DNA of 64,000 nt from Phyllobacterium sp. 21LDTY02-6 (lineage in GTDB: Bacteria > Pseudomonadota > Alphaproteobacteria > Rhizobiales > Rhizobiaceae): NCBI RefSeq assembly GCF_023554255.2, contig NZ_JAMJWD020000002.1, forward strand, positions 613,435 through 677,434, written 5' to 3'. Positions 43,948 to 53,550 of the stretch are shown one piece after another. Positions within the stretch are counted from its first letter, which is position 1. Each line of letters opens with the position of its first letter. A program made the position numbers and the translations under genes. The notes below the pieces were generated by a model. That model saw nothing but the letters and a program-made list of their open reading frames with translations. It had not been told where the DNA came from and searched no databases.

Positions 43948-44628
43948 CTAGGCGACGGTCGGCCTGAACGCCCAGACGGTGGTCTTCTTCACCTCCGAAT
44001 CTTCCAGCGCTCGCGTAACGGCGACGGTGTAGGTAGCGAGGGCCTCGAGGTTCGTTTTCGGCAGGTAGGAGCGCCCCGGATCGCCCACCAGCACCACCGC
44101 GCCACGCGATGCCAGCCGGTCGAACCAGGGAGTGAGCCTGTCGGCCAGCGGCTTCTCGTAGAATACGTCGCCCGCCAGGATGACATCCCAGCCATGATCC
44201 TGGCCGATCAGATCCTCGGAGCAGAGTTCGAGGCCGACCTCGTTGATCGCTGCATTGATGCCGATGGCCTGGCCGGCGAAGCGATCTATCTCGCAGGAAA
44301 TCGTCTTCGCAGCTCCCGCCATGGCGGCAGCGATGCCGACGAGACCCGATCCCGAGGCGAAATCGAGGACGACGAGGTCCGCGACGGTACCCGGATGATC
44401 GATCACATAGCGCGCAACAGCCTGGCCACCGGCCCAGGCAAAGGCCCAATAGGGCGGGGGAAGCCCAAGAACCGCCAATTCCTCTTCGGTCTTGTGCCAT
44501 AGGTCGTGGGCTTCATCCGCCAGCCGGAGCCTTATCTCCGGCACGTGCGGAGGGGCCTGCAGTGACGTGTTGTTCAGTACGAATTGCCGAAAACGCTCGC
44601 TGTCCGGGTCCAGCGGAGCGTCGTTCAT
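43948..44628 (-). CDS. Class I SAM-dependent methyltransferase, ETF-beta lysine methyltransferase-like
   Basis: The 226-residue enzyme has motif I VLDFASGSGLVGIAAAMAGA near residues 85-104 and the catalytic-region motif AGDVFYEKPL. The N-terminal PPYWAFAWAGGQAVARY block is typical of the METTL20/ETF-beta lysine methyltransferase group and related bacterial enzymes. ATG 44628 overlaps the EVE-domain gene stop by 4 bases. The target in this organism is not established; ETF beta is the best guess from the family. Confidence 0.82.
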   Translation of the reverse strand: MNDAPLDPDSERFRQFVLNNTSLQAPPHVPEIRLRLADEAHDLWHKTEEELAVLGLPPPYWAFAWAGGQAVARYVIDHPGTVADLVVLDFASGSGLVGIAAAMAGAAKTISCEIDRFAGQAIGINAAINEVGLELCSEDLIGQDHGWDVILAGDVFYEKPLADRLTPWFDRLASRGAVVLVGDPGRSYLPKTNLEALATYTVAVTRALEDSEVKKTTVWAFRPTVA

Positions 44629-45053
44629 TCGGGTGCCGGAACCAGGCCGCCCATGCGGCAGACCTCTTCCCACTCATCCGGCGTCACCGGCTGGACCGAG
44701 AGACGCATGGATGTCACGAGCGCCATCTTCTCGAGCTTCGGGTTGGCCTTCACGTCCTTCAGCGTCACCGGGGTCGGAACGTCCTTGTAGGCGCGGATGT
44801 CCACGCATTCCCAGCGCGGATCGTCGGTGGTGCTGTCATGGTGGGCCAGGGCGCAGACTTCCACTATACCGACGACCTCAAGCCCCTCATTGGAATGGTA
44901 GAAGAAGCCCTTGTCGCCGATTTTCATGGCGCGCATGTTGTTGCGGGCCAGATAATTGCGGACGCCGTCCCACTGGGTTCCCTTGGAGCCGGCGGCCTTC
45001 TGCTTTTCCCACGACCATTTGTGCGGTTCGGATTTGAATAACCAGAATGCCAT
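44625..45053 (-). CDS. EVE domain-containing protein
   Basis: The 142-residue product is a stand-alone EVE (PUA-like) domain, a family thought to bind modified nucleobases in RNA or DNA. MAFWLFKSEPHKWSWEKQ, WDGVRNYLARNNMRAMKIGD and GFFYHSNEGLEVVGIVEV are its characteristic segments. ATG 45053 begins at the conserved motif; a longer frame has no support. It overlaps the methyltransferase start and follows the YciI gene by 8 bases, inside a tsaD-gpsA-yciI-EVE-methyltransferase run. Confidence 0.92.
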   Translation of the reverse strand: MAFWLFKSEPHKWSWEKQKAAGSKGTQWDGVRNYLARNNMRAMKIGDKGFFYHSNEGLEVVGIVEVCALAHHDSTTDDPRWECVDIRAYKDVPTPVTLKDVKANPKLEKMALVTSMRLSVQPVTPDEWEEVCRMGGLVPAPE

Positions 45054-45061
45054 GATGTCGC

Positions 45062-45352
45062 CTATTTCGCTGCTGGATTCTTGATGGCCCAGTTCCATGG
45101 GCGGATATCGACCGAGGCGAACAGGCCAGCCTTCGCATAGGGGTCTTCGCTGGCGATAGCCTGCGCCGAAGCAGCGTCGGCGGCTTCGATGACGACGAGG
45201 CTGCCATTCGGCTTGCTGTCGGTATCGAGGAATGGTCCTGCGAATTTCAGTGCGTCGCCGAGTCCGTCGAGATAGGCGAGATGGGCCGTACGGGTATCGA
45301 GGCGCAGCTGGAGCTGGCCCGGCTTGTCGTTGCAGATGAGTGCATAGAGCAT
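45062..45352 (-). CDS. YciI family protein
   Basis: The 96 residues are a ferredoxin-like YciI/dimeric alpha-beta barrel domain, MLYALICNDKPGQLQLRLDT near the start, HLAYLDGLGDALKFAGPFLD near residues 24-43 and a catalytic-type DPYAKAGLF block (Asp and His of the family). YciI proteins have varied, mostly unknown roles. It lies 3 bases after gpsA and 8 bases before the EVE gene, so it is part of the same operon. Confidence 0.9.
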   Translation of the reverse strand: MLYALICNDKPGQLQLRLDTRTAHLAYLDGLGDALKFAGPFLDTDSKPNGSLVVIEAADAASAQAIASEDPYAKAGLFASVDIRPWNWAIKNPAAK

Positions 45353-45355
45353 GGT

Positions 45356-46339
45356 TCAGTCCTCATTCTTTAGTGGGCGTGACAGAAGCGCCTCCATGGC
45401 CTGGTCGATGGTCACGGAGCCGGCAAGAATGTTTGCGACAGCGCTGAGGATGGGCGTCTCGATGCCACGCGCGGCGGCGAGCTTCACGGCAATTTCCGCC
45501 GTTGCGACACCCTCGGCAAGCGGCCTGGCGGTCAGGTCCTCGCCGCGCCCCAGCGCTATTCCATAGGAATAGTTGCGCGATTGCGGTGTCGAACAGGTAA
45601 GCATGAGATCGCCGAGGCCCGAAAGTCCCATGATCGTTTCCGGGCGAGCGCCGAATGCGCCGGCCAGCCGCCGCAGCTCCACGAAACCGCGCGTGATCAA
45701 CGCAGCCTGCGCACTGGCGCCGAAGCCGCGCCCGATGGCAGCGCCGGCGGCGATCGCCAGGACGTTCTTCAGGGCGCCGCCGATTTCAACGCCGATCAGG
45801 TCGTCTGTCGAATAGCAGCGGAAGGTCGGGCCGGACAGCGTTGCGGCGATGCGATCGGCGAGATCGCCATCCTCCGCCGCGACGGTGACCGCCGTCGGCA
45901 ATCCGCGCGCGAGATCGGTCGCAAAGCTTGGGCCGGACAGGGCGCCGAGCTGGTGATCGGGCAGGATATCGCCGGCAAGCTGCGACATCAGGCGGCCGGT
46001 GCTGCGCTCGATCCCCTTTGCACAGATCACCAGCGGCCGGTCGGCAGGGATCACAGCGCCGAGGGATTCGAGCGCCTGCGCCAGCGATTGGGCGGGGATG
46101 ACGCAAAGGATGAGATCGGCGCGCTTGACCGCTTCCGCTGCATCGGTGCTGGCGGCCAGGCCGGGATGCAGATCGATGCCGGGAAGATAGGCTCCGTTGC
46201 GGTGGCTGCGATTGATCTCCTCCGCCACCAGAGGATCGCGCAGGTAGAGCGTCACATCATTGCCGTGGCGGGCGCACATGGTGGCAAGCGCCGTGCCCCA
46301 GGCGCCGCCGCCGAGCACGGCGATCGTGCTTCCGCTCAT
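45356..46339 (-). CDS. gpsA: Glycerol-3-phosphate dehydrogenase [NAD(P)+]
   Basis: GpsA reduces dihydroxyacetone phosphate to glycerol-3-phosphate for phospholipid synthesis. The 327 residues start with the nucleotide-binding [14 protein letters not shown] (8-21) and contain the catalytic Lys in [13 protein letters not shown] and [23 protein letters not shown] 46339 overlaps the tsaD stop by 4 bases; a much longer frame overlaps tsaD and is not real. tsaD-gpsA is a common alphaproteobacterial pair. Confidence 0.97.
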
Positions 46340-47418
46340 GCCTTGGCCCCCCGCCGTCCCGTTCCGATCAGCGGCACCGAGTGCTGGTCGAGCGGCCAGC
46401 GCGAGCGCGGCGCGATGTCCAGGCTGTCCGTTGCAATTTGTGCATGCGCCCTTTCCGCTGCCGCCCACGCGATCATCGCGGCATTGTCGGTGCACAGCGC
46501 CATTGGCGGCGCGATGAACCGGAAGCCGTTGCGGGCGCACAGAAGCTGCAGGCCATCGCGCAATACGGCATTGGCTGCAACGCCGCCGGCGACGACGAGG
46601 CAAGGCTCCGATATTTGCGGGAACTGGCTGCGGAAGCGGGCCAGCGAACGCGAAACGCGGTCATCGAGCGTATCGGCGACCGCACTCTGGAAGGCGGCGC
46701 AGATATCGTTGATGTCCTGCTGCGACAAAGGCTGCAGGCTGGAAGCAAGCTGCCGCACCGCCGTCTTGAGACCTGAAAACGAGAAATCCAGCCTGCTCTC
46801 TCCCTTCATCGGGCGCGGCAGGGCAAAGCGTTCCGGATTGCCTGAACGGGCAGCGATCTCCACCTGCGGCCCACCCGGATATGGCAGGCCGAGCATTTTC
46901 GCCGTCTTGTCGAAAGCTTCGCCGAGGGCGTCGTCTATCGTCGTGCCCAGGCGCTCATAGTCGCCCAGCCCCTTCACCAGCACCATCTGGGTATGGCCGC
47001 CGGATACGAGCAGCAGAAGATAGGGAAATGCGATACCATCGGTGAGGCGCGGCGTCAGCGCATGGCCTTCGAGATGATTGATCGCGTAGAACGGCTTCCT
47101 GGCCGCCATCGCGATCGCCTTGCCGGTCATGAGGCCGACGATGAGGCCGCCGATCAAGCCCGGTCCCGCTGTCGCCGCAACTGCGTCGACCTCGTCGAGC
47201 GTCATGCCGGCTTCGTCGAGGGCGCGGGTGATGAGGCCGTCGAGAACTTCCACATGGGCGCGGGCGGCGATTTCCGGCACCACGCCGCCATAGGGCGCAT
47301 GGTCGCCGATCTGGCTGAGAACGACATTGGATCGAATGGCGCCGCCGCCGGCCTCGTCTCTCTCGACAATAGCCGCCGCCGTTTCGTCGCAGCTCGTTTC
47401 GATACCCAGTACGCGCAT
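46336..47418 (-). CDS. tsaD: tRNA N6-adenosine threonylcarbamoyltransferase TsaD
   Basis: TsaD transfers threonylcarbamoyl to A37 of tRNAs reading ANN codons; MtaB elsewhere in the window then methylthiolates the product. The 360 residues begin [14 protein letters not shown] and hold the metal-binding His115 and His119 in [10 protein letters not shown] and the ASKA-fold segment VSGGHTQMV. Two adjacent ATGs exist (47421 and 47418); the second is better placed after AAGGG. It is the first gene of a five-gene operon and is divergent from hemC (83-base gap). Confidence 0.97.
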
Positions 47419-47501
47419 CATACCCTTCGTCGCATTGCCCCTGCAATAAAAGCCCGTTAGTAGAGGGCCGTATTCAATTCGCCTAACACGGACAGCTGCC
47501 A

Positions 47502-48431
47502 ATGCAAACAAAAACGCTCAAGATCGGTACACGTGGGAGCGCTCTAGCGCTCGCACAAGCCGGGGAAACGCGTTCGCGCTTGATGGCAGCACATGGTTTC
47601 GCGCAGGAGCAGATCGAAATCATCGTCATCTCCACCAGCGGCGACCGCATCCAGGACCGGCCCCTGTCCGAGGTCGGCGGCAAAGGGCTGTTCACGCTGG
47701 AGATCGAAGAGCAATTGCTCGACGGCAGGATAGATTTCGCCGTGCACTCGTCGAAGGACATGCCGACCTTCCTGCCGGACGGACTGCATCTTTCGGTCTA
47801 TCTCGAGCGCGAGGATCCGTGCGACGCCTTCATAGGCCGCCATGCGGGCGCGTTTCTCGACCTGCCGCACGGCGCCACGGTCGGTTCTGCTTCGCTGCGG
47901 CGCCAGGCTTTGATCCGGCGGGCAAGGCCGGATCTGAAGGTCGTCAACTTCCGCGGCAACGTGGAGACGCGGCTGCGCAAGCTGGCCGATGGCGATGTGG
48001 ACGGAACCTTCCTCGCCAATGCCGGCCTGCGCCGGCTGGGGCTCGGCGATGTGGTGACCGAGCTGATGGACGTGGCCGATTTTCCGCCGGCGCCAGGACA
48101 GGGCGCCATCACCGTGGAAAGCCGGATCGGGGATAGCCGCATCGACGGGCTTCTCGCGCCGCTCAATCACCTGCCGACATCCACCGCCCTTGCCTGCGAA
48201 CGCGCATTTCTCGCCGAACTGGACGGTTCATGCCGTACGCCCATAGCCGGGCTCGCCACCATTGATGGCGACACGCTGCATTTTCACGGCATGATACTCG
48301 TGCCGGATGGAAGCGAGGCGCATGAGATACGGCTCGAGGGGGCGTTGTCGGACGCCGCCGACATCGGCCAGGATGCAGCAAGGCGCCTGCGCGCGGTTGC
48401 AGGACAACATTTCTTCGCGGACTGGGTGTGA
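47502..48431 (+). CDS. hemC: Porphobilinogen deaminase
   Basis: HemC polymerises four porphobilinogens to hydroxymethylbilane. The 309 residues carry the dipyrromethane-cofactor Cys244 in [10 protein letters not shown] and the catalytic Asp86 in [22 protein letters not shown] at the N-terminus is typical. It overlaps hemD by one base and is divergent from tsaD. Confidence 0.97.
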
Positions 48432-49135
48432 TGCTGAAGACGGTTCTGGTGACGAGGCCCGAACCCGGAGCGACCAGAACGGCCGAAAGGCTCCAAAGGC
48501 GTGGTTACCAGCCAATTGTCCTTCCTTTGACGTCGATCGAGGCGATCGCTTGCGAGCTGCCGGGGCTGGACTTCGATGCGGTTGCCGTGACGAGTGCCAA
48601 CGCCCTGCGGCACGCACCGCCGGATATGCTTGCGCGCCTGACCCATCTGCCGCTGTTCGCCGTGGGCGAGGCGACCGCCGACGAGGGGCGCAAGGCCGGC
48701 TTCGGCACCGTGACGGAGGGCGCTGGCGACGGGGAGCAACTGGCGGCCGTGTTGCGCGAGGAACTGCCGCGGGGCGCCCGCATCGCCTATCTGACCGGGC
48801 GGGTGCGCACGGCGGAATTCGAGCGCCTCGTCATGGCTGGCGAGCGACAGATGATCGCAGTGGAACTCTACGACACGAAATTCATCACCTATCAGGAGAA
48901 TGACATCCGCTCCATTTTCAAGGACATCGTGCTCGATTTCTGCCTCGTCTACTCCGCCAAGGGCGGCGAGGCGCTGGTCGAGCTGGTGCGACGCGCGGCC
49001 GGGCCGTTCAGCAATACAAAGTTTCTCTGCCTCTCCGAGAAAATCGCCACAATATTGAACGCCAATGGCCTGACGAAAATCGGTGTCGCGAATCGACCGC
49101 AGGAGGAGGCCCTGCTGCGATTGATCGAGGGCTAG
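48431..49135 (+). CDS. hemD: Uroporphyrinogen-III synthase
   Basis: HemD closes hydroxymethylbilane to uroporphyrinogen III. The 234 residues show the two-domain HemD fold with VLVTRPEPGATRTAERLQRRGY at the start, AVAVTSANALRH near residue 53 and the conserved FAVGEATADEGRKAGF block. The ATG at 48431 overlaps the hemC stop (TGATG); a GTG three bases upstream is an alternative. HemD is poorly conserved, so the operon position supports the call. Confidence 0.93.
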   Translation: MLKTVLVTRPEPGATRTAERLQRRGYQPIVLPLTSIEAIACELPGLDFDAVAVTSANALRHAPPDMLARLTHLPLFAVGEATADEGRKAGFGTVTEGAGDGEQLAAVLREELPRGARIAYLTGRVRTAEFERLVMAGERQMIAVELYDTKFITYQENDIRSIFKDIVLDFCLVYSAKGGEALVELVRRAAGPFSNTKFLCLSEKIATILNANGLTKIGVANRPQEEALLRLIEG

Positions 49136-49243
49136 CCGGTCGCCGATGTTCGGCCGCGCGGGTGTTTCCTCCATGGAACTTCCTTGCTAGCTTAAGCCTT
49201 ATCCTTGGTTGGATCCGCCAGCCCTATTGAGAAGAGAGAATTC

Positions 49244-50533
49244 ATGGCCAAATCATCCGTTCCTCGTCATTCCCGACCCGCAAGAAAACCGGTGACGATC
49301 GAACTGAAGCCTGAATCCATAGAGACTGCGCGGGCCGCCCACGAAAAGCTTCCCGATCCCGAGCCTGTCGGCTTCGATCCCGCCTCTTCGTCCGGCCCAA
49401 CTTCGTCCGGCCCAAGCGTGGCCGCTCCGCCACAGCCGCCGAAAACCGAAAAGCCCAGCGTTTCGCAGCCGGGCGACAACTTTGGAAGACCTGCCGCCGG
49501 GCCGGGTGCGGCATCGACGTCAACGCCGGTTCCGCCGGCAAGGGCCGAATCGTCTGCTCGCCTGGTCCTGGCCGGACTTGCCGGCGGCATCCTGGCCTTG
49601 CTGGGTGCCGCTGCGCTGCAATGGGGCGGTGTATTGCCTTCGCCGGGGCAGGATATTTCGAAGCTGGAAGCCGATATCGCCCAATTGCGCCAGGCGCCGG
49701 CTCCCGCGCTCGATCAGGCCAGTGTGGCCAGGATCGAAGAGGCGGCCGGCAACGCCAGAAGCGCTGTCGAACGCGCCGAGGGCGTCAATGCTGAGATCGC
49801 GTCCATCCGGCAGGAGCTTGCCGCGGTCAAGGATGCGGCCACAAATGCTGCTCCCGTGGATACGAGTGCGCTCGACGGCCGTATCGCAGGGCTCGAGAAT
49901 TCGTTGCCCGAGGCCCGGCAGCAGCTGGAACAGGGCCTGAATGGCCTGACCCAGCGGCTCGACGCCATCGAAGCCAAGGTCAATGATCCGGCTGGCCAGG
50001 CCAATATGGCGCTGGCATTGGCTGCAACGGGGCTGAAAGCGGCGGTGGACCGCGGTCAACCGTTCAGGGCCGAACTCGATACCTATCTTTCCGTAGCGCC
50101 CGAGGACAAGGCGATCCAGTCGCTGGCGCCGCAAGCGGATGCGGGCGTGCCGACGCTTGCCGCGCTTGCCGATCAGTTCGCCGATGTTGCGCCGCGCATC
50201 GTCGCCAGTGCCCGCCAGGTCGATCCCAATGCCGGTATTGTCGATCGGCTCTGGGCCAGTGCCGCCAGTCTCGTCGAGGCGCGGCCGGTTGGAATGGTCG
50301 AGGGTGAGGGTGTCGATGCGAAATCCGCGCGCATCGAAGCCCATCTCCGCTCCGGAAACCTCCAGGCTGCCATAGACGAATGGAACTCGCTGCCGCCCGA
50401 TGCGAAATCCGCCTCGCAGGCGTTTGGAGATGCCATGTCCGCGAGGCTCAACGCCAACAAGACGATGTCCGAAGCCCTGACCGGTGCTCTCTCCGGTGTC
50501 AAGTCGACGGCGAGCCAGGGAGTCGGGCCATGA
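49244..50533 (+). CDS. Mitofilin/Mic60-like inner-membrane protein
   Basis: The 429-residue protein has the layout of alphaproteobacterial Mic60: a Pro/Ser-rich cytoplasmic N-terminus (1-105), one transmembrane segment (about 107-128), a periplasmic coiled-coil region (about 135-250) and a C-terminal mitofilin-type helical domain with LRSGNLQAAIDEWNSLPPDA near residues 375-395. Mitochondrial Mic60 shapes crista junctions, and bacterial relatives are linked to membrane shape and outer-membrane contact. hemY overlaps its stop by 4 bases, and hemCD lie upstream, the known synteny. The function here is inferred. Confidence 0.85.
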   Translation: MAKSSVPRHSRPARKPVTIELKPESIETARAAHEKLPDPEPVGFDPASSSGPTSSGPSVAAPPQPPKTEKPSVSQPGDNFGRPAAGPGAASTSTPVPPARAESSARLVLAGLAGGILALLGAAALQWGGVLPSPGQDISKLEADIAQLRQAPAPALDQASVARIEEAAGNARSAVERAEGVNAEIASIRQELAAVKDAATNAAPVDTSALDGRIAGLENSLPEARQQLEQGLNGLTQRLDAIEAKVNDPAGQANMALALAATGLKAAVDRGQPFRAELDTYLSVAPEDKAIQSLAPQADAGVPTLAALADQFADVAPRIVASARQVDPNAGIVDRLWASAASLVEARPVGMVEGEGVDAKSARIEAHLRSGNLQAAIDEWNSLPPDAKSASQAFGDAMSARLNANKTMSEALTGALSGVKSTASQGVGP

Positions 50534-52203
50534 TGCGCATTCTCTTCTTCTTCATCGTCGTCCTGATGCTGGGCGTCGGTTTCGCCTGGCTGGCGGACCG
50601 GCCGGGCGACCTGGTGCTGACTTTCTCCGGCATGCAGTACAAGGTGAGCCTCATGGTGGCAGCGACGGCTGTCGTGGCCATCGTTGCGACCGTGATGCTG
50701 GCCTGGTGGCTCATCAAGAGCATCGTCGCCTCGCCCTATGCCCTGCGCCGCCACTTTCGCGCCCGCAAGCGCGACCGCGGCTACCAGTCGCTTTCAACCG
50801 GCCTGATAGCGGCGGGGGCGGGGGATGGTCAAAAGGCGCGCCTGATGATCAAACAGGCCGAGAAACTTCTCAATTCCGACCAGGAACCGCTGATAAAGCT
50901 GCTCGATGCCCAGGCTGCGATGCTTGAGGGGCGCACCGATGATGCGAGGCAGAAATTCGAGGCCATGCTCGATGATCCCGAGACACGGCTTCTGGGCCTG
51001 AGGGGGCTTTACCTCGAGGCGCAGCGCCTTGGTGCAAGGGATGCCTCGCGGCACTACGCCGAAGAGGCTGCGGCCCTCGCGCCCAGTGTGGAATGGGCTG
51101 CGACCGCGGCGCTTGGCCAGAAGGTGACGCATGGCGATTGGGATGGCGCCCTGGTACTTCTCGACAAGCAGAAATCGGCGCGGCAGATCGACAAGGACAA
51201 GGCAAAACAGGAGCGCGCCGCCATCCTGACGGCCAAGGCGACAGAACTGTTCGAGACCGACCCGCTCTCGGCCCGGCCGCTGGCCATCGAGGCGAACAAG
51301 CTTGCGCCCGACCTCATTCCCGCCGCCATCATTGCCGCGAGGACGCTGTTCGAGCAGGGCGATCTGCGCAAGGGCTCGAAGATAATCGAGCAAAGCTGGA
51401 AACGGACGCCCCATCCCGATGCCGCGGACATTTATGTGCATGCCCGTGTCGGCGATTCGGCGGTCGACCGGCTGAAACGTGCCCGCCGTCTCGCCGGCCT
51501 CTATCCGAGCCATCCGGAATCGGGCCTCGCTATCGCCCGTGCGGCGCTCGATGCCGGCGAATTCAGGATCGCGCGCGAGGCCGCCGAAGAGGTGGTGCGG
51601 AACAAGCCGAGGGAAGGGGCATATCTGCTTCTGGCCGATATCGAAGAGGCGCAGACAGGCGATCAGGGCCGGGTGCGCCAATGGCTCTCCCGCGCGGTAA
51701 AGGCGCCGCGCGATCCCGCCTGGACGGCCGACGGGTTCGTTTCACCGCAATGGGCCCCAGCCTCGCCGGTCACCGGCCGGATCAACGCCTTCGAATGGAA
51801 GGTTCCGGTAGAGCAGCTCGGACCCGTCATCGACGTCGGCGACGACGATCTGCCGACTATTCCGGATATCGATGCGGCGCCGGCAGCCAATGCCGATGCA
51901 AAGTCGGAGCCGATATTGCCGCCGCCCGCGCCGGCCAGGTCCCGGGCGCATGAAGCCCCGGCTGAAATCGCCGAGGCAGAGGTCGTCGCATTCGAACCGG
52001 CGCGCACCGCCCCGGAACCGAAGAAGGCTGACAAGACCAGCACCGACCAGCGGCCGGTGGCCTCGGTATTGCCGCGCCTGGCGGAAGACGAACCCGAACA
52101 AGGGTCAAGCGACGAAATATTCGTCGCGCCGGTGCCGGACGATCCGGGAGTGCGGCCGGAGCATCAATCGCGCAGTACCGCAAAAAAAGGCCGCCTGTTC
52201 TAG
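50530..52203 (+). CDS. hemY: HemY N-terminal domain / TPR membrane protein
   Basis: This is the TPR-type HemY protein of proteobacteria, not the Gram-positive protoporphyrinogen oxidase of the same name. The 557 residues start with two membrane spans (about 5-25 and 40-62), followed by the HemY_N region and several TPR-like helical repeats (about 85-400). The tail after residue 440 is acidic and Pro/Ala-rich. It starts in the stop of the Mic60-like gene (ATGATG; start 50530 or 50533). The pairing suggests a joint envelope or heme-related role, which is not proven. Confidence 0.9.
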   Translation: MMRILFFFIVVLMLGVGFAWLADRPGDLVLTFSGMQYKVSLMVAATAVVAIVATVMLAWWLIKSIVASPYALRRHFRARKRDRGYQSLSTGLIAAGAGDGQKARLMIKQAEKLLNSDQEPLIKLLDAQAAMLEGRTDDARQKFEAMLDDPETRLLGLRGLYLEAQRLGARDASRHYAEEAAALAPSVEWAATAALGQKVTHGDWDGALVLLDKQKSARQIDKDKAKQERAAILTAKATELFETDPLSARPLAIEANKLAPDLIPAAIIAARTLFEQGDLRKGSKIIEQSWKRTPHPDAADIYVHARVGDSAVDRLKRARRLAGLYPSHPESGLAIARAALDAGEFRIAREAAEEVVRNKPREGAYLLLADIEEAQTGDQGRVRQWLSRAVKAPRDPAWTADGFVSPQWAPASPVTGRINAFEWKVPVEQLGPVIDVGDDDLPTIPDIDAAPAANADAKSEPILPPPAPARSRAHEAPAEIAEAEVVAFEPARTAPEPKKADKTSTDQRPVASVLPRLAEDEPEQGSSDEIFVAPVPDDPGVRPEHQSRSTAKKGRLF

Positions 52204-52299
52204 GCGTCATTCGGGCTTTTGCGGCAAGATGCACAATGGCGGTCGCGGATTCCGCAGGTTATGAACGAGCAAACTTGCGTGAACACGAAAGATGGATGG

Positions 52300-52776
52300 A
52301 TGCTGGATCGTCTCGTCACCTTCTTCAAGACCCTCCCTTCAGGCGAAAGCGGAAAGGAGAAATTCTCGCGCTCCGATCCGCGGCTGGCGGCGGCGGCATT
52401 GCTGTTCCATGTCATGGACGCCGACGGAGACAGTGGCCGGGAAGAGCGCAAGCGCATCTCCCAGCTGATCTCCGATGCCTATGGGTTGAAGGGCGAGGCA
52501 TTGCAGCGCCTGCTGAACGATGGCGAGCGTGCCGATCAGGAGGCGGTCGATCTCTACAGTTTCACCAGCATCATCAAGCGCAATCTGGACGAGAAAGCGC
52601 GTATCCGCTTCATTGAGCTCATGTGGGATGTCGTCTATGCTGACGGCACGGCGCACGAGCTGGAGGACAATGTCGTCTGGCGCGTTGCCGAACTGATCGG
52701 CGTTTCGACGCGCGACCGGATTGCGATGAAGCAGAAAGTGGCTGAGCGCGCCAGTCAGATCGCACAGGACGAATAG
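52300..52776 (+). CDS. TerB family protein
   Basis: The 158-residue product is a TerB-like (DUF533/TerB) helical domain, with AAAALLFHVMDADGDSGREE near residues 33-52 and WDVVYADGTAHELEDNVV later. The repeated acidic DADGD and YADG segments are where TerB proteins bind metal. ATG 52300 (MLDRLVTFFKTLP) agrees with the usual Rhizobiales start; ATG 52261 is in frame and possible. It lies 96 bases after hemY and 12 bases before the amidotransferase. Tellurite resistance should not be assumed. Confidence 0.85.
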   Translation: MLDRLVTFFKTLPSGESGKEKFSRSDPRLAAAALLFHVMDADGDSGREERKRISQLISDAYGLKGEALQRLLNDGERADQEAVDLYSFTSIIKRNLDEKARIRFIELMWDVVYADGTAHELEDNVVWRVAELIGVSTRDRIAMKQKVAERASQIAQDE

Positions 52777-52788
52777 GACCGGACTTGC

Positions 52789-53550
52789 ATGTTCCAGAAC
52801 GGATGGATCGATAGCGATGTGTTGCGCCCTCCGAAGATACTGGCAATTCTACATCAGGAACGCTCCAGCGCCGGCCGGGTTGGCCAGCTGCTCATCCAGG
52901 CCGGCTTCGCGCTGGACATAAGGCGCCCGGCGCTTGGCGACCCGCTGCCCGAGACTTTGGCCGATCATGCCGGTGCGGTGATCTTCGGCGGGCCGATGAG
53001 CGCCAATGATCCCGAGGAATTCATCCACGCCGAAACCGATTGGTTGAAAGTGCCGCTGGCGGAGGACAAGCCGTTTCTCGGCATCTGCCTAGGTGCGCAG
53101 ATGCTGGCAAAACATCTCGGAGGCGAGGTCGCGCCCCACCCCGAGGGCCTGGTCGAAATCGGCTGGTATCCGCTGCGGGCCACCGAGGCCGGCAGCGAGC
53201 TGATGGAATGGCCGTCGATGGTCTATCATTTCCATCGGGAAGGCTTTGCGCTGCCGGCGAGCGCCACGCTGCTCGCAACCGGCGACAGCTATGCCAACCA
53301 GGCGTTTCGCTACGGTGCCAATGCCTGGGGCGTGCAGTTCCATGCGGAGCTGACGCGCGCAATGATGCAGCGGTGGGTGGTACGCGGCTGGGAGAGGTTC
53401 TCGCTGTCGGGAGCGCAGCATGGAAGGCAACATCTGGAGGGCCGGATGATCCATGACGCCCTGTTGAAGGCCTGGCTGCAACGCTTCCTCACGCTGGTGT
53501 TCGGCAAGCCCGAGCTCGAGGGCAGTCGACAGGAGACAGCCAGGTCCTGA
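52789..53550 (+). CDS. Class I glutamine amidotransferase-like protein
   Basis: The 253-residue protein has the complete triad: nucleophile Cys100 in LGICLGAQML, His185 and Glu187 in WGVQFHAE. It belongs to the stand-alone GMP-synthase-like amidotransferases (GuaA N-type domain), several of which act as peptidases or transfer ammonia to unknown partners. No synthase domain is fused. It follows the TerB-like gene by 12 bases and converges with the MFS gene. Substrate unknown. Confidence 0.9.
   Translation: MFQNGWIDSDVLRPPKILAILHQERSSAGRVGQLLIQAGFALDIRRPALGDPLPETLADHAGAVIFGGPMSANDPEEFIHAETDWLKVPLAEDKPFLGICLGAQMLAKHLGGEVAPHPEGLVEIGWYPLRATEAGSELMEWPSMVYHFHREGFALPASATLLATGDSYANQAFRYGANAWGVQFHAELTRAMMQRWVVRGWERFSLSGAQHGRQHLEGRMIHDALLKAWLQRFLTLVFGKPELEGSRQETARS

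Follow-up and report, generated by a model that had tools for sequence, protein, structure and literature searches.

Close mic60-hemY spacing in the hemC-hemD-mic60-hemY operon of Phyllobacterium and recurrent HemD-Mic60 single frames in other alphaproteobacteria

Why two genes for membrane proteins, mic60 and hemY, should lie directly behind two genes of tetrapyrrole synthesis is the question raised by a locus of Phyllobacterium sp. 21LDTY02-6, which was analyzed here within a window of 64,000 nucleotides (contig NZ_JAMJWD020000002.1, positions 613,435 to 677,434). In this window, hemC (47502..48431, 309-residue hydroxymethylbilane synthase; PF01379 252.7 bits, TIGR00212 338.3 bits), hemD (48428..49135, 235-residue uroporphyrinogen-III synthase; PF02602 108.9 bits, NF006621 226.5 bits with a cut-off of 223), mic60 (49244..50533, ATG start, 429-residue mitofilin-domain protein) and hemY (50530..52203, 557 residues) form one same-direction run on the + strand, 47502-52203, in which the hemD start (GTG or ATG) overlaps the hemC stop. 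A preliminary description of this locus, made from the sequence alone, proposed that Mic60 and HemY act together, perhaps linking membrane shape with tetrapyrrole synthesis. The relatives of this locus appear to point more to a link between Mic60 and HemD than to a special link between Mic60 and HemY, and the function best supported by the sequence data would be for Mic60, with HemY at its side, to provide a place at the membrane for the HemD step.

Of 241 class genomes, 195 gave a HemY_N match, and 100 loci were chosen among the stronger of the matches listed, for the most part a single one from each family; together with the window, these 101 loci, a sample conditioned on HemY, were scanned with profiles grown from the window genes, which found HemY in 101, HemD in 94, Mic60 in 92, HemC in 87 and TsaD in 79 of them. 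In 23 of the 101 loci a single open frame is matched by both the HemD and the Mic60 profile, each such frame covering 218 or more of the 229 HemD model positions, and Pfam returns HEM4 for all 23 of these proteins and Mitofilin for 19. Among the 90 loci in which the fused or separate state could be scored (23 fused, 67 separate), the fewest changes of state on a FastTree tree is 17, of which the starred branches force at least nine, compared with a mean of 20.3 under shuffled labels (18 of 500 shuffles being as low as 17); the fused trait is thus weakly clustered, and both states occur within each of the single families f25, f51, f79 and f97. Four of the 23 single-frame genes lack an ATG in the part from HemD to the membrane helix. 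When named genomes were scanned with a fused query, which biases the resulting set, 80 loci were returned, some of them sharing a genome (52 fused, 25 separate and three undecided), the fused cultured species including Dongia mobilis, Dongia deserti, Vineibacter terrae and Reyranella soli, while the genes are separate in Skermanella aerolata, Denitrobaculum tricleocarpae, Arenibaculum pallidiluteum and Azospirillum sp. SYSU D00513. The proposed association of Mic60 with tetrapyrrole synthesis is strengthened by the 23 single frames, although its route would be HemD, not HemY. As a separate observation, the linker between HemD and the anchor carries a carph-isopro domain (NF046037, E 4.4e-13 to 5.1e-18) in four of the 23 fused proteins, i.e., those of loci L038, L046, L063 and L085.

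Covariation of evolutionary rate was assessed in the 73 loci possessing all five genes, by correlating pairwise distances with the other genes partialled out. HemD-Mic60 shows the highest value of the ten pairs (partial r 0.30), followed by HemY-TsaD (0.246), HemD-HemY (0.244), HemC-HemY (0.237), Mic60-TsaD (0.225), HemC-TsaD (0.22), HemC-HemD (0.191) and HemD-TsaD (0.186), with Mic60-HemY in ninth place (0.17) and HemC-Mic60 the lowest (0.111). Under label permutation the Mic60-HemY value was reached in eight and the HemD-Mic60 value in none of 1000 trials; since such permutation leaves shared ancestry in, only the ranking of the pairs is used. This ranking favours HemD-Mic60 and would give Mic60-HemY no special place.

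At the junction (GGGCC-ATGATGCGC) the mic60 TGA at 50531-50533 overlaps one of two candidate hemY starts, either an ATG at 50530 (-4, ATGA at 50530..50533) or an ATG at 50533 (-1); an AGGGAG stretch lies within the last mic60 codons, and the fold of the junction RNA is ordinary (z -0.99). The stop/start overlap 3' of hemCD that had been described is therefore present in this genome. It occurs in none of 16 intact same-genus genomes, where the gaps are +6 to +15 nucleotides (nt), and in one of ten measurable other members of the order (an eleventh had no Mic60 in reach), and as a conserved coupling signal it was rejected on account of the 16 congeners. Across the sampled class loci (n=92; the start closest to the stop was taken for scoring, a choice that biases towards overlap), 32 mic60-hemY gaps are at -4, 13 at -1, one at -8 and 41 at 0 to 20 nt, i.e., 87 of 92 lie between -8 and +20 nt, the remainder being four at 21 to 60 and one at 115 nt. 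Given the spacing in the congeners and the tight gaps class-wide, the close spacing is old and the overlap a local detail; the exact stop/start overlap is incidental to this genome.

The tight adjacency itself exceeds chance: hemY is the next gene on the same strand in all 92 sampled loci with a clear Mic60, a proportion that overstates the rule because the sample is conditioned on HemY and separated cases fall outside it. The hemC-hemD junction is of similar tightness (n=87; 14 at -4, 17 at -1, 42 at 0 to 20 nt), and hemD-mic60 is looser where the two are separate, with 18 of 67 gaps above 60 nt. One explanation of these figures is a housekeeping operon, i.e., genes co-transcribed because heme and a shaped inner membrane are both required for respiration, with Mic60 and HemY doing separate jobs and no physical link between them. 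The comparable tightness of hemC-hemD, the absence of the overlap from congeners, the covariation of Mic60 with HemY, which is not above that of Mic60 with the TsaD control, and the separability of mic60 and hemY in some genomes are all consistent with this explanation, whereas the recurrence of HemD-Mic60 single frames and the occupation of the same slot by HemX in other classes (see below) argue against it, and it is considered possible but rather unlikely.

This separability was examined deliberately in 16 regions. In three genomes of family f12 (G010, G125 and G207), hemC-hemD-mic60 is found without hemY behind it and no HemY_N match occurs in any of the three; in genome G035, hemD adjoins hemY and mic60 is located on another contig; in family f33 (G031, G140 and G221) mic60 and hemY are ~1.9 kb apart; and in G037 and G143 Mic60 is present and hemY is not adjoining. 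The pair is thus strong but not obligate, and the HemY-selected sample of 100 misses most such cases. At the level of genome presence, Mic60 was detected in 198 and HemY in 229 of 241 genomes, the HemY count including TPR (tetratricopeptide repeat) background. A strict co-loss of Mic60 and HemY was rejected, as the f12 genomes keep Mic60 without HemY behind and G035 has hemD-hemY without mic60 between. A clear Mic60 is missing from nine of the 101 loci: L081 is truncated by the end of its contig, Mic60 is absent from the slot of L053 and present elsewhere in that genome, no Mic60 was seen in L111, and the Mic60 slot is occupied in five loci (L058, L113, L131, L115 and L126) by an anchor protein that matches weakly or not at all and in L119 by an unmatched anchor-plus-coil protein. 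It was also observed that HemY is reduced in G043 (L158) and G237 (L163) to short two-helix proteins (frames of 84 and 137 residues), which lie directly behind mic60.

These data bear on the proposal of the preliminary description that Mic60 and HemY are dedicated partners joining membrane shape to tetrapyrrole synthesis. Adjacency is near-universal in the sample, the overlap is present in this genome, and Mic60-HemY covariation lies above zero, as its permutation result indicates; yet the overlap is absent from every intact congener, the covariation is ninth of ten, the f12 genomes and G035 separate the two genes, and the functional domains of the two proteins are expected on opposite sides of the membrane. 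The joint action claimed for the two proteins is accordingly weaker than was stated: beyond their adjacency the evidence does not support a special partnership of Mic60 and HemY, which we regard as improbable.

With respect to the proteins themselves, the coordinates and identities that had been assigned to mic60 and hemY are correct by Pfam and by sequence, and the membrane anchor, coiled coil and mitofilin-type C-terminus ascribed to Mic60 are borne out. The Mitofilin domain (PF09731) matches residues 231-392 (49934..50419) with 46.5 bits against a cut-off of 27.4, and it matches 66 of the 92 Mic60 family members at E 0.001. The AlphaFold2 (AF2) model contains an anchor helix at residues 103-127 of modest per-residue confidence (pLDDT), coinciding with a hydrophobic stretch at residues 105-127 (49556..49624), coiled-coil helices within residues 158-246 (158-199 and 208-246; 49715..49981) and a high-confidence C-terminal helical domain, so that a single N-terminal anchor followed by a coiled coil is predicted; the stretches flanking the membrane helix are without clear charge bias. 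A profile of the 92 family members has as its top match the MIC60-MIC19 structure 7pv1 (E 1.4e-10), the match lying in the signature region; coiled-coil proteins rank next. A Foldseek search of the PDB with the Mic60 model returned no match at E 0.001, and a VIA structure comparison yielded generic helical bundles at Z 7.2 and below, with MIC60 absent among the matches listed, a result that carries no weight. The bacterial protein thus resembles mitochondrial MIC60 of the MICOS complex in its anchor, coiled coil and mitofilin signature, and differs in that its gene sits in a heme operon. A further mark of the Mic60/mitofilin family is membrane bending or contact with BamA/SAM50.

In the accessible part of the study by Bell, Wolf and Koonin (2020, PMC7641849), the mic60 gene is named IMMP/mitofilin and described as a diverged HemX homologue (citing Huynen et al. 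2016), and HemY is read as an oxidase (HemY/HemG), in difference from the HemY found here, which is a TPR protein and not an oxidase enzyme. HemD-Mic60 fusions, the HemY knuckle considered below and the junction are unmentioned in that part of the paper, and the fusions may already stand in the primary Mic60 literature. HemX (PF04375) has no match among the scanned proteins of the window or in the window's genome (G000). It was found in 56 of 199 genomes of the phylum; the genomes with HemX probably belong to the gamma and beta classes, as the E. coli control suggests. Of 30 HemX loci fetched, three were dropped because the chosen frame was on the wrong strand; in all 27 usable ones hemY comes next after hemX, with a gap of -4 to +9 nt, i.e., HemX holds the same slot and junction as mic60-hemY. 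Comparison of Mic60 with HemX by hhalign gave 93.8% and 93.0% with full profiles and 13.9% with the C-terminal domains alone, for which the controls scored 59.5% (HemY), 1.3% (HemC), 0.4% (HemD), 0.1% (TsaD), at most 0.5% (shuffled columns) and 0.7% (reversed); as the HemX score exceeds most controls yet falls below that of HemY, homology of Mic60 and HemX is not claimed here. The likeness to the hemC-hemD-hemX-hemY operon extends to fusion, given that NCBIfam has a named model for the HemD/HemX fusion (NF005411), and this model matches ten of the 23 HemD-Mic60 proteins at E 0.001. The two operons differ in that the HemY of the HemX loci is without the four-cysteine knuckle (27 of 27) and in the absence of PF04375 from the window's genome.

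HemY had been described as a membrane TPR protein, and the evidence agrees: HemY_N (PF07219) matches residues 26-134 with 87.1 bits against a cut-off of 31, and the AF2 model (mean pLDDT 84.2) comprises two membrane helices, a TPR superhelix, a degenerate rubredoxin-like knuckle and a low-confidence tail. TIGR00540 scores 65.4 bits, under its cut-off of 142. The structural neighbours of the model are headed by four entries of LapB, i.e., 7t6d (Z 18.8, 361 residues, root-mean-square deviation 10.7), 9up5 (17.9), 8v24 (17.6) and 4zlh (17.1), aligned over 307-361 residues; other TPR chains have Z 14.0-16.9, and because the highest of these, the OGT TPR, is near the lowest LapB value, the LapB lead is small. 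With the HemY profile, LapB chains align as a single stretch running through the knuckle to position 422 (E 8.5e-14 to 3.4e-13), engineered TPRs, TTC21B, OGT and PA4667 outscore LapB by this sequence profile, and a single HemY query found only PA4667. A four-cysteine knuckle (CxxC..CxxC) is present in 78 of 101 class HemY proteins, and Zn_ribbon_LapB (PF18073) in 43 of 100, with LapA_dom in six of 100. In the window HemY the TPR is present and the four cysteines are absent from the knuckle position (residues 390-427, 51697..51810; motif scan and structure comparison), as they are from all 27 genus and order relatives and all 27 HemY proteins of the other classes. A profile of 58 of the 78 knuckles weakly matched rubredoxins, in part as half matches (E 0.0013 for the best), as well as RadA (0.0017) and LapB (0.01), and cytochrome c1 chains came out at a comparable level. 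Furthermore, PF18073 occurs in 104 of 114 alphaproteobacterial genomes, where the matches listed are mostly HemY and a protein of ~450-500 residues that is probably RadA.

LapB (YciM) is an adaptor of lipopolysaccharide assembly with its own type of anchor, and it hands LpxC to FtsH. Most class HemY proteins share with it a membrane anchor, TPR and C-terminal rubredoxin-like knuckle in the same order; HemY differs in its HemY_N domain with two helices, in its heme operon context and, in this order, in the absence of the cysteines. From this likeness one may propose that HemY is a LapB-like proteolysis adaptor, whose TPR and knuckle would pass a tetrapyrrole enzyme to a membrane protease such as FtsH, with Mic60 localizing the checkpoint. 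The LapB entries at the top of the structural list, the frequency of PF18073 and CxxC..CxxC, and the profile match through the knuckle suggest such a function, while the near tie with OGT, the better profile scores of other TPR proteins and the PA4667-only result of the single query, the missing cysteines of the window protein and its 27 relatives, the occurrence of PF18073 in other proteins and the hypothetical nature of both substrate and protease here count against it, making it an improbable proposition. In the open literature searched, no paper was found that combines HemY and LapB, and the combination of HemY and rubredoxin returned only papers that, by their listing, appear unrelated.

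The reading that we favour is a joint one, in which the Mic60 tail seats HemD at the inner membrane and HemY serves as a cytoplasmic adaptor there, within an old hemC-hemD-mic60-hemY operon of which mic60 and hemY are the distal, membrane-protein half; its chances of being right or wrong are, in our judgement, evenly balanced. Mic60 would be anchored by its one helix with the N-terminal tail in the cytoplasm and the coiled coil and mitofilin domain in the periplasm, and its tail would hold HemD at the membrane, as one chain in many relatives and by contact elsewhere. A HemD placed N-terminal to the anchor, and hence in the cytoplasm, would fit this expected topology. HemY, anchored by two helices, may act at the same place, receiving or regulating tetrapyrrole enzymes; its TPR is placed in the cytoplasm because the stretch after the second helix contains seven K/R and one D/E. 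With the mitofilin domain periplasmic and the HemY TPR cytoplasmic, contact between the two proteins would go via membrane parts or the Mic60 N-terminal tail. Close spacing could yield matched amounts through re-initiation, and a complex of these proteins, if formed, may affect heme flux or membrane shape. That Mic60 stays with hemC-hemD in the three f12 genomes without HemY behind, and that HemX holds the same slot and junction in other classes, is consistent with this reading.

Several points weigh against the seating of HemD by Mic60. The physical link between the two is one that we infer from sequence; in the window they are separate, with 108 nt from the end of hemD at 49135 to the start of mic60, so that here mic60 is tightly joined to hemY, not to hemD, and the fusion argument rests on relatives. 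An internal ATG before the anchor is kept in 19 of the 23 single-frame genes, and eight of the 23 (L034, L070, L085, L093, L094, L099, L114 and L127) have a candidate start (ATG, GTG or TTG with at least five of six Shine-Dalgarno bases) with a Shine-Dalgarno-like stretch, that of L099 being a GTG in a gene without ATG; free Mic60 could thus also be made in some fused loci. The covariation test leaves shared ancestry in, every one of the ten pairs shows correlation, and the 73 loci include fused ones. In G035 mic60 stands on another contig. Finally, the accessible portions of PMC12136173 and PMC12631773, which summarize Mic60 work in intracytoplasmic membranes, stress these membranes and not heme.

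Mic60 is usually viewed as a membrane-shaping protein inherited by mitochondria. It has been called restricted to alphaproteobacteria and mitochondria, at least in the accessible part of PMC9764997. If the seating of HemD is correct, the recurrent single frames would tie the role of bacterial Mic60 to a tetrapyrrole enzyme, and a LapB-like HemY would offer a testable mechanism for a protein of unsettled role. A bolder extension, which we think has little chance of being true, is that Mic60 began as a HemD anchor and in many alphaproteobacteria still is one, that HemD, Mic60 and HemY form an inner-membrane checkpoint at the tetrapyrrole branch point with HemY working as LapB does, and that this heme-flux scaffold is the ancestor of the mitochondrial crista organiser.

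As regards the surroundings, tsaD (46336..47421, minus strand; domain and profile matches) lies head to head with hemC and is the first gene of a divergent tsaD-gpsA-yciI-EVE unit (44625-47421). The synteny had been taken as known, and rightly so, as the same gene order, orientation and divergent partner are published for alphaproteobacteria in the accessible part of PMC7641849. A promoter and terminator scan found no terminator-like site on the + strand in 47300-52900, and one weak promoter-like site (49227-49256), which overlaps the mic60 start. On the 3' side of hemY is a TerB-family gene (52258..52776, + strand; PF05099 121.7 bits), which was rejected as a core operon member, being present in one of 101 class loci and thus a lineage-level neighbour. 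A TerB homologue is found close 3' of hemY in the same genus and elsewhere in other families of the order. In one same-genus genome (G424:C1:3943810-3945989), hemY and the TerB gene are matched in several pieces, possibly owing to sequencing error.

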